A stretch of DNA of 64,000 nucleotides from an uncultured Pelagibacteraceae bacterium (GTDB lineage: Bacteria; Pseudomonadota; Alphaproteobacteria; Pelagibacterales; Pelagibacteraceae), in contig CACCZY010000001.1 of assembly GCA_902550635.1 (NCBI GenBank), forward strand, positions 1 to 64,000. Reading direction: 5' to 3'. Position 1 is the first letter of the stretch. Each line of letters begins with the position of its first letter. The notes beneath the pieces are model-generated. The model saw nothing but the letters and a program-made list of their open reading frames with translations. It had not been told where the DNA came from and did not search any database. The translations under genes and the position numbers were made by a program. Shown here piece after piece: positions 36,684 through 39,992 of this stretch.

Positions 36684-37347
36684 AAAAATTTTTATAGCTA
36701 TTGATACCAATAGTATACATAAAGCAAAAAAAATTATTACCGAAACAAAGACAAAAAAACTTAAAATTGGTTATAAATTTGGATTAGAATTTTTAAACTC
36801 TAAAAATGGAAGATTATTTATATCTAAAATTAGAAAAAAAATTATATTCGCTGATTTAAAGCTTAATGATATTCCAAATACTTGTATTTCAACAATAAAA
36901 TCAATTAAAGATTTAAAGATAAATTACTTAACAATACATATAAGTTCGGGATTAAATGCTCTAAAATCTACAAAAAAAGTTTCGGGTAAAATAAAACTAG
37001 TTGGTGTAACTACTCTAACTTCATTAAATAATAAAGATATAAAAGAAATTGGATATACAAAAAGTATTAAAAATTTAGTTATTCATCAAGCAAAATTAGC
37101 AAAAAAAGCTAAATTAGATGCTATTGTTTGTAGCGCTCACGAAGTTAAAGAAGTAAGAAAAATATTTAAAAAAGAAATTATTACCCCTGGAATAAAATTA
37201 AATTCAAAATCAAAAGACCAAAGAAGAGTAATGACTCCAAAAAAAGCATTTGAAAAAGGAAGTGATTGGCTAGTTATTGGAAGATCCATAACCAAAAATA
37301 ATATAAAAAAAAATATGAAAGATTTAGTTGATAATCTTAACGAGTAA
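36676..37347 (+). CDS. pyrF: Orotidine 5'-phosphate decarboxylase
   Basis: The last step of UMP synthesis. The catalytic charge network is intact in FADLKLNDIPNT (near 55-66), the phosphate loop includes TPGIKL, and the C-terminal DWLVIGRSIT matches the family. It has 223 residues. Its stop overlaps the trpF start by one base. Confidence 0.93.
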   Translation: MNKKIFIAIDTNSIHKAKKIITETKTKKLKIGYKFGLEFLNSKNGRLFISKIRKKIIFADLKLNDIPNTCISTIKSIKDLKINYLTIHISSGLNALKSTKKVSGKIKLVGVTTLTSLNNKDIKEIGYTKSIKNLVIHQAKLAKKAKLDAIVCSAHEVKEVRKIFKKEIITPGIKLNSKSKDQRRVMTPKKAFEKGSDWLVIGRSITKNNIKKNMKDLVDNLNE

Positions 37348-37970
37348 TGGAAGCAAAAATCTGTGGAGTAAGAGACTCCAAAACTTTGAATTATATAGTA
37401 AATCATAAGTATCCACCAAAATTTATTGGTTTTATTACAAACTATAAAAAATCAAAAAGATATGTTGAGTACAATGATTTAAAAAAATTAATTAATGTTA
37501 AAAAAAAAGGTATAAATTTTGTATCAGTATTAGTGGATCCAGATGACCATATATTAGAGAAAATAAAAAATCTAAACTTTGACTTTTATCAGCTTTATGA
37601 TGTTGCTCCAGAAAAAGTAAAATTAATAAAAAATAAATATAATAAAAAAATAATTTCTGCCATAACTATTGAAAATAAACCAGATGTAGAAAAATACAAA
37701 AATTTTGAATTATTCTCAGACATTATTTTATTTGACAGTAAAGGTTATGAAAAATCACTTGGATTTAATCATGATCTACTTAATGGTATACCTCGCTCTA
37801 TAACCAAAATGCTTGCGGGAAACATTCAATTTGATGATAGACTTGATAAATATTCTAAAATAACAGATATTATTGATATATCGGGAAGTTTGGAAACGTC
37901 AGGTAAAAAAGATATTTTAAAAATAAATACTTTTTTAAAAAATATTAACAAAATAAAAAATGAAAATTAA
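37347..37970 (+). CDS. trpF: Phosphoribosylanthranilate isomerase, divergent
   Basis: The 207-residue TIM barrel starts MEAKICGVRD, with the catalytic Cys6 in KICG, and keeps the catalytic Asp in ILFDSKG and the C-terminal DISGSLETSGKKD. Other hallmarks differ: QLHGDE reads QLYDVAPE, the GGTGxxFDW loop reads YEKSLGFNHD, and LAGGL reads LAGNI. The chemistry residues are therefore kept while substrate-loop residues are not. It lies between pyrF and trpB, overlapping both, so tryptophan synthesis is the natural role. Confidence 0.85.
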   Translation: MEAKICGVRDSKTLNYIVNHKYPPKFIGFITNYKKSKRYVEYNDLKKLINVKKKGINFVSVLVDPDDHILEKIKNLNFDFYQLYDVAPEKVKLIKNKYNKKIISAITIENKPDVEKYKNFELFSDIILFDSKGYEKSLGFNHDLLNGIPRSITKMLAGNIQFDDRLDKYSKITDIIDISGSLETSGKKDILKINTFLKNINKIKNEN

Positions 37971-39189
37971 AAAAAAAATCGCTCTTATTGACCAACATGA
38001 TAAAAATGGTTTTTGGGGAGGAAAATTTGGTGGAAGCTTTATTCCAGAAACATTAAAAAAACCTGTACATGACCTTGCTAAAAGCTTTGCAAAGCTTAGG
38101 AAAAATAAAAATTTTATAAAAAAAAGAGATTATTATTTTAAAAACTATATTGGTTCTCCCACTCCTTTTATTAAATTAGAAAATTTATCTAGTCATTTGG
38201 GGGGAGCTCAAATATGGGCAAAAGTTGTTTCTGAAGCAAATGGCGGAGCCCATAAAATTTATAATGCAACGGTACATGCTTTACTTTGTAAAAGTATGGG
38301 TAAAAAATATATAGTTGGGGACACAGGTGCTGGTTATGCTGGAAAAATGTTAAGCATGGCAGCAAAAAAATTCGGTCTAAAATGTAAAATTTTTATGGGT
38401 GTTAAAGACATTAAAAGACAAAAACCTAATTGTATTGCTATAAGAAAAAATGGAGCTGAAATTGTTCCTGTTTATACTGGGAGTCAGACGTTAGTTGATG
38501 CCGTAAGTGAATGTATGAGATATTGGGTTTCTAATTGCGATACAACACACATGTGCGTAGGATCAACGGTTGGACCAAATATCTTTGTAAAAGTATGTGG
38601 ATGGAGCACCAGTCAAATTTCAAGAGAACTAAAAGTTCAAATAAAAAAAGAATTCGGAAAAATACCAAAAAAAATTAAACTTATAAATTGTGTTGGTGGT
38701 GGAAGTTCTGCTTATGGTTTTTGGAGTGAATTTGTTGATTTTCCCAAAACACAAATAGAATTTATTGGCGTTGAAGCAGGAGGACCAAAGAATTCTAAAT
38801 TACATGCTGCTCCTTTGAGTAAAAATGCTAAATTAGGAGTGTTGCATGGTTCTGCTTCTTATGTTTGTCAAAATAAAGATGGACAAATTAATGAGACTGA
38901 TTCTATTTCTGCTGGACTTGATTACCCAGGAGTAAGTCCAATACATTGTTTTTTAAAAGATACCAAAAGAGCAAAATACACTTATGCAACAGATGAAAGT
39001 GCCTTAGCAGCTTACAAAATGGTAACTAAATTTGAAAAATTAAATCCAAGCCTCGAACCTAGTCATGCATTCGCAGAGGCAATAAAAATTGCACCTAAAT
39101 TATCAAAAGACACAATTATAATAGTAAACTCATGTGGTGACGCAAAAAAAGACAAAGATATTCTGAAAAAAAGATTAGGAAAATATTAA
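37960..39189 (+). CDS. trpB: Tryptophan synthase beta-chain homologue with atypical active site
   Basis: A 409-residue fold-type II PLP enzyme of the TrpB family: FGGSFIPET near the start, the PLP lysine Lys99 in GGAHKIYN, the phosphate loop CVGGGSSA at 244-251, SAGLDYPGV near 317, and a roughly TrpB length. Hallmark positions differ. The usual ETGAGQHG reads DTGAGYAG (121-128), so the catalytic Glu is Asp121 and Gln-His is Tyr-Ala. The KREDLxHTG stretch before the lysine reads KVVSEANGG. GGGSNA reads GGGSSA, and NLSGRGDKD reads NSCGDAKKDKD, putting Cys392 where the pyridine-binding Ser is expected. Its place between trpF and trpA still implies a Trp role. Confidence 0.8.
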   Translation: MKIKKKIALIDQHDKNGFWGGKFGGSFIPETLKKPVHDLAKSFAKLRKNKNFIKKRDYYFKNYIGSPTPFIKLENLSSHLGGAQIWAKVVSEANGGAHKIYNATVHALLCKSMGKKYIVGDTGAGYAGKMLSMAAKKFGLKCKIFMGVKDIKRQKPNCIAIRKNGAEIVPVYTGSQTLVDAVSECMRYWVSNCDTTHMCVGSTVGPNIFVKVCGWSTSQISRELKVQIKKEFGKIPKKIKLINCVGGGSSAYGFWSEFVDFPKTQIEFIGVEAGGPKNSKLHAAPLSKNAKLGVLHGSASYVCQNKDGQINETDSISAGLDYPGVSPIHCFLKDTKRAKYTYATDESALAAYKMVTKFEKLNPSLEPSHAFAEAIKIAPKLSKDTIIIVNSCGDAKKDKDILKKRLGKY

Positions 39190-39992
39190 TGTTATTATCT
39201 CCAATAAATATAGCATTTAAAAATTGCAAAAATGAAAAAAGACCAGCACTTCTTACCTATACAGTTGCATCTGATCCCAGTAAAAATAAATCATTAAAAA
39301 TTTTAAAATCAATCTCAGAATATGTGGATATTTTAGAGGTTGGATTTGGTCACTCAACACCAATAGCAGACGGAGGACAAATTCAAACTAGCTCTTACAG
39401 AGCAATTAAAAATGGTTTTAAAATGAAAGATGCTTTTCAAATAGTTAAAAATTATAAGAAATTAAAAAATACGAAACCTATAATACTTATGGGTTACTAC
39501 AATATGATTTATCAATATGGAGAAGATAAATTTATAAACAAATGTAAAAAAGTAGGAGTAAATGGATTAATCGTAGTAGATTTACCTTGGCCAGAAAATA
39601 AAAAGTTTTCAAAAAAATGCAAAAAAAAATCTATTACATTTGTTCAATTGCTTTCACCAACTACATCAAAAGATAGGTTAAAAAAAATAGTTAAAGATTC
39701 CCATGAAATGATTTACTATATAAGTATGCTTTCTACAACAGGTGGCAAATTAAAAGTATCTCCAAAAAAAATACTTAAAAATTATAATAAAATAAAAAAA
39801 ATTGACCCTAAAAAAAATTATGTAATAGGTTTTGGAATTACTGATAAAACTATTTCAAAATTAAAAACTGCTGATGGACTAGTAGTAGGAAGTGCAATTT
39901 GTAAAGAAATAACGAAAAGTTTAAATAAAAGACAAAATCCTGTCACAAATGTAAGCAATATGGTAAAAAGATTAAAAAACAAAATTATATGA
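39189..39992 (+). CDS. trpA: Tryptophan synthase alpha-chain homologue, divergent interface loop
   Basis: A TIM barrel of 267 residues that cleaves indole-glycerol phosphate in canonical members. The catalytic acids are retained: Glu50 in DILEVG and Asp61 in IADGG. However, the usual GIPFSDPxADG loop reads GFGHSTPIADG, replacing the Asp that signals to the beta subunit by Thr57; AGDP reads ASDP; YNPI reads YNMI; and the mobile GVTG loop reads STTG. Phosphate-binding GFGI and VVGSAI are normal. It starts on the last base of trpB and overlaps accD. Confidence 0.85.
   Translation: MLLSPINIAFKNCKNEKRPALLTYTVASDPSKNKSLKILKSISEYVDILEVGFGHSTPIADGGQIQTSSYRAIKNGFKMKDAFQIVKNYKKLKNTKPIILMGYYNMIYQYGEDKFINKCKKVGVNGLIVVDLPWPENKKFSKKCKKKSITFVQLLSPTTSKDRLKKIVKDSHEMIYYISMLSTTGGKLKVSPKKILKNYNKIKKIDPKKNYVIGFGITDKTISKLKTADGLVVGSAICKEITKSLNKRQNPVTNVSNMVKRLKNKII

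Follow-up and report, generated by a model that had tools for sequence, protein, structure and literature searches.

SAR11 are the most abundant bacteria of the ocean, and tryptophan synthase is the textbook enzyme for both allostery and substrate channelling, in which Glu109 of the beta subunit and the contact between beta Lys167 and alpha Asp56 are treated as central. The stretch of SAR11 DNA analyzed here (64,000 nucleotides, the window) carries a gene for a beta subunit (TrpB) with neither residue in place. Does this protein still make tryptophan, and which parts of the canonical mechanism does it retain? The gene (trpB; 37960..39189, + strand, 409 aa) was assigned from its ORF, profile and PDB searches, and a structural model. 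It lies in the order trpF-trpB-trpA on the + strand, between the genes encoding phosphoribosylanthranilate isomerase (trpF; 37347..37970) and the tryptophan synthase alpha subunit (trpA; 39189..39992). Its ORF is intact, sharing 11 bases with trpF and a single base with trpA.

The best family match was TIGR00263 (TrpB1), for which the score of 387.6 bits fell just below the curated cut-off of 392.45. Many other TrpBs of the same type (D-type) scored just above this cut-off, and all D-type scores lay far under those of the canonical proteobacterial TrpBs in a phylum-wide sample. The TrpB2 model TIGR01415 yielded 90.8 bits, short of its cut-off of 518.85. The best PDB matches were TrpBs (E 4e-100), and an AlphaFold2 model matched TrpB structures with Z of 35-37 and rmsd of about 4 at a pLDDT of 66; being weak at residues ~202-217, 247-254, and 280-328, the model is too poor for active-site geometry. 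A preceding inspection of the letters (the sequence-only reading) had placed a TrpB-like protein between trpF and trpA, which the family and PDB matches and the gene order bear out.

Residue equivalences were derived from an alignment to E. coli K-12 TrpB and are given with the E. coli number first. Among the residues kept are K87=K99, the Schiff-base lysine of PLP (38254..38256, + strand as for all codons below), R141=R153 and D305=D321, which form the main salt bridge of the closed state, and E350=E366. Changed residues comprise (i) E109=D121 (38320..38322), at the position of the carboxylate that activates indole N1 (PMC9512447); (ii) Q114=Y126 and H115=A127 (38335..38340), in the carboxylate loop and indole pocket (PMC9512447); (iii) R148=A160 (38437..38439), at the closed-state hydrogen-bond partner of Gln114 (PMC9512447); (iv) K167=V179 (38494..38496), in helix H6, which contacts the alpha subunit; (v) T190=S202; (vi) N236=S250 (38707..38709), in the PLP phosphate loop; as well as (vii) S377=C392 and R379=D394, on either side of Gly378=Gly393 (39133..39141). 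The numbers Lys99 and Asp121 of the sequence-only reading were thus correct, and the alignment reproduces the motif changes that it had described, from ETGAGQHG to DTGAGYAG and from GGGSNA to GGGSSA. The changes at R148 and K167, and the matching change in TrpA described below, go beyond it.

Several of these differences turned out to be ordinary. Cys392 does occupy the place of the Ser facing the PLP pyridine nitrogen, as had been pointed out, but it is no oddity: most alphaproteobacterial TrpBs have Cys at position 377, and of the TrpBs collected that possess Glu109 (73 proteins), 53 have it. Asp at position 379, two residues on, is not common. Met occurs at position 114 in several canonical TrpBs, so a change of Gln114 is not unusual, and GG instead of TG ahead of A-H-K is present in E. 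coli TrpB too. The unusual set consists of Asp109, non-His115, Ser236, non-Lys167, and non-Arg379. It is fixed throughout the SAR11 D-type clade, including all 112 SAR11 sequences that share the window's type. The wider clade also contains the motif forms DTGAGMFG, DTGAGYNG, DTGAGMAG, and DTGAGMNG, with Tyr or Met at position 114, Ala, Asn, or Phe at 115, and mostly Ala at 148. When TrpBs were thinned at 85% identity (19 D-type and 24 canonical proteins), about 47 beta-subunit positions had, in the D-type, lost completely or almost completely a residue that canonical TrpB keeps near-fixed, many of these positions being located in the indole pocket, the carboxylate loop, the COMM domain, and the alpha-facing helix. 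These switched positions support the earlier suspicion of a rebuilt active site.

Small, AT-rich genomes such as those of SAR11 could accumulate substitutions by drift, with no functional meaning. We consider this improbable for the D-type, as the changes are fixed within the clade, TrpA carries a counterpart to the change at beta 167, and pairwise dN/dS of trpB ranged from 0.027 to 0.045 (twelve closest pairs). The D-type trpB is under strong purifying selection, in line with the sequence-only reading that the gene, intact and overlapping its neighbors, is not decaying.

The exact DTGAGYAG codon pattern was detected in 113 of 147 genomes of the SAR11 order (85 of 105 among those with a completeness of 90% or more), far beyond chance, since the reversed control pattern gave 0 matches in the same 147 genomes. 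A search of 270 alphaproteobacterial genomes and of a phylum-wide sample of 120 yielded no D-type TrpB outside SAR11. Among the alphaproteobacterial genomes, the highest score of a non-SAR11 protein was 406 bits, compared with 759-817 bits for D-type proteins, and the phylum-wide sample displayed the same gap; all non-SAR11 alphaproteobacterial matches retrieved read ETGAGQHG. Pattern and tblastn searches detected no viral carriage of a D-type trpB. In a tree of 49 rows, the D-type rows were monophyletic with a support of 100/100. Their stem was long (1.24 changes per column) and the branches within the clade were short; the join of the stem to the other types was without resolution. Among the genomes sampled, the D-type is therefore a SAR11-specific clade that is spread throughout SAR11.

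Three more unusual TrpB types occupy the same SAR11 locus, each with its own divergent TrpA. These types read (i) ESGAGQHY/F (L031, 6849-7997; L032, 5934-7082; L185; L192); (ii) ETGAGAHL (L199); and (iii) ETGASMNA (L035, 5881-6999; L191). A TrpB2-like protein with ETGAGQWG is found in a few SAR11 genomes (L201, L202, L203, and L039), sometimes alongside another TrpB. At L031 and L035, pyrF and accD are 63-65% identical to those of the window, compared with 28-39% for trpB and trpA, which suggests that trpBA may have been exchanged as a pair. We also noted that in L114, L204, and L246 trpB is 82-84% identical to that of the window, while the neighboring pyrF and accD reach only 37-48%; given this disparity, the SAR11 trp locus looks like a patchwork shaped by gene-wise exchange.

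The partner subunit encoded downstream retains its catalytic residues E49 and D60, but Asp56 is replaced by Thr57 (39357..39359, + strand; TrpA comparison). In the TrpA of two other loci (L036, 7385-8179; L031, 8053-8757), Glu was observed in place of the catalytic Asp60. In Salmonella tryptophan synthase, alpha Asp56 forms a salt bridge with beta Lys167. The two residues lie close together along the indole channel, and each contacts beta Tyr279 (PMC8187860). Across all loci with both subunits readable, beta Lys167 was paired with an acidic alpha 56 residue (Asp or Glu) in 60 of 60 cases and beta Val, Ile, or Leu167 with Thr, Ala, or Cys in 143 of 143 (25 and 20, respectively, in the thinned set), most paired loci sharing one ancestor, so that these counts reflect few independent events, namely the D-type stem and the L035/L191 type. 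The latter combines Leu167 with alpha Thr56 and retains Glu109. Since the pairing is without exception, the Lys167-alphaAsp56 contact was lost in both subunits together.

Does the remodeled protein serve tryptophan synthesis? All seven trp genes are present in the genome from which the window derives: trpE, trpG, trpD, and trpC lie in a row on another contig, and trpF, trpB, and trpA at the locus described here. A lexA-like gene follows trpC in this genome (L234, 5039-6588); PMC2395257 reports the same for trp clusters of the Sargasso Sea. Nearly all complete SAR11 genomes contain one TrpB, and a few carry TrpB2 as well. In the window's own genome, which is 68% complete, no second canonical trpB was found, and by analogy with the complete genomes it probably has none. 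A second, weak TrpB match (G000, contig 44) was rejected as a 375-aa PLP ammonia-lyase-like protein. Three genomes of 94-96% completeness without TrpB were considered as possible tryptophan auxotrophs and likewise dismissed: the whole locus is probably unassembled, because accD was missing too.

A D-type protein is the sole TrpB of a closed SAR11 genome of 1,308,759 bp, and the same D-type residues occur in a closed genome of 1,456,888 bp, which we take to be that of HTCC7211. The former presumably belongs to 'Ca. Pelagibacter ubique' HTCC1062, whose genome was published as 1,308,759 bp (PMC3160333, PMC2704378, PMC3090418). Both HTCC1062 and HTCC7211 have been cultured in artificial seawater to which pyruvate, glycine, methionine, and vitamins, but no tryptophan, were added (PMC8437039). 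A previous study placed the single trpB of P. ubique in a third group of its tree and concluded, from the single copy, that this gene has to function in making tryptophan (PMC2395257). From the growth of HTCC1062 without added tryptophan and the single-copy TrpB, we infer that the window's protein converts indole and L-serine to L-tryptophan.

These observations also bear on two readings in which the protein would have left that role. Many pocket residues have changed, as might be expected if a different PLP beta-replacement enzyme, with another nucleophile or product, had taken over the trp locus; tryptophan-independent SAR11 would then have no TrpB at all, even though the remainder of the pathway is intact, which makes such a takeover very improbable. 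The suggestion that the protein may act on a different amino acid found no support. Equally hard to credit is a TrpB with little or no catalytic activity that is retained to activate TrpA, as in the indole-releasing plant TSB-like pseudoenzyme, which likewise is without the Glu109 equivalent (PMC12727527). In the plant protein, Glu has become Ala, Ser, or Pro and a canonical TSB remains, whereas the SAR11 protein retains both a carboxylate, in the form of Asp, and the PLP lysine, and nearly all complete genomes have no other TrpB.

Taken together, the sole copy, the purifying selection, the seven trp genes, the paired change in TrpA, and the presence in what is probably the genome of a tryptophan-independent isolate argue for a working SAR11-specific tryptophan synthase beta subunit with a remodeled indole site and interface, rather than a different enzyme; we assign this a probability of roughly 0.87. 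Of the earlier proposal that tryptophan is made by a modified mechanism, the tryptophan-making half is supported by the same single copy, gene set, selection, and isolate.

For the mechanism itself, we propose the following. The D-type TrpB would pair with the adjacent TrpA and receive its indole, which would be joined to the aminoacrylate formed on PLP-Lys99 from L-serine, the probable substrate. In canonical TrpB, the Glu109 carboxylate holds indole N1 and stabilizes charge during C3 attack on the aminoacrylate, Arg148 forms a hydrogen bond to Gln114 when the enzyme is closed, and the indole site owes its width to His115 and Phe306 (PMC9512447). Asp121, the obvious candidate, would take over from Glu109 as the indole-activating carboxylate. 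It is one methylene shorter, and the exchange of the Gln114-His115-Arg148 set, which shapes the indole pocket as well as the closed state, for Tyr/Met126, Ala/Asn/Phe127, and mostly Ala160 would then have to bring indole nearer or shift the loop. At the interface, the uncharged pair Val179 and alpha Thr57 replaces the Lys167-alphaAsp56 contact, and allosteric coupling would proceed without it. Possibly, serine-donor specificity has changed as well, in a manner suiting cells limited in glycine and serine; as a whole, this scheme of re-engineered site, altered coupling, and shifted specificity is a possible rather than a probable one.

A stronger version of the last point holds that the enzyme prefers another three-carbon donor, such as O-phosphoserine, as in some archaeal TrpB2, or another activated serine, in adaptation to glycine and serine shortage. 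Brzovic et al. 1992 reportedly found that Glu109Asp in Salmonella TrpB changes substrate specificity and activity, and in the D-type both the PLP-adjacent Arg379 and the Gln114-His115 loop have changed. The glycine-serine auxotrophy of SAR11, reportedly described by Tripp 2009, would provide a motive and not evidence. The D-type retains, however, the Asp305 and Arg141 that TrpBs using serine possess, and there is no resemblance to TrpB2 (90.8 bits for TIGR01415 against 518.85), so that we regard a different donor as unlikely, although less so than drift.

If a remodeled site and coupling are indeed at work, nature has an alternative solution for an allosteric enzyme that is among the best studied. 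A bacterial group that ranks with the most numerous on Earth lacks both Glu109 and the Lys167-Asp56 contact, which makes the D-type clade a natural experiment that can show which mechanistic elements are indispensable. The paired alpha/beta change is open to subunit-swap tests, and D-type TrpBs offer a new starting point for TrpB engineering. No published account of the active-site and interface changes of SAR11 TrpB was found in the literature searched; within that literature, the residue-level picture is undescribed, although the cluster has been known since 2008 (PMC2395257).

Compared with known systems, the D-type resembles canonical TrpB1 (Salmonella/E. coli, P. furiosus) in its fold, PLP lysine, Arg141-Asp305 pair, Glu350, GAG loop backbone, and position adjacent to trpA, but differs in having lost Glu109, Gln114, His115, Arg148, Lys167, Asn236, Arg379, and some 40 other near-fixed positions. 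In the Sargasso Sea metagenome, a P. ubique-like trpB cluster was set apart by Kagan et al. 2008 (PMC2395257); in its available text, that study gives distance only and describes neither the changes at the active site and interface nor the matching one in TrpA. The plant TSB-like pseudoenzyme offers a parallel in that the Glu109 equivalent was lost in a TrpB relative still working with TrpA (PMC12727527), yet there the carboxylate was removed and a canonical TSB is present, whereas the D-type keeps Asp and a canonical paralogue was not found. TrpB2/TrpB-like proteins (TIGR01415) belong to the same superfamily but, unlike the D-type, those of SAR11 genomes keep ETGAGQW.
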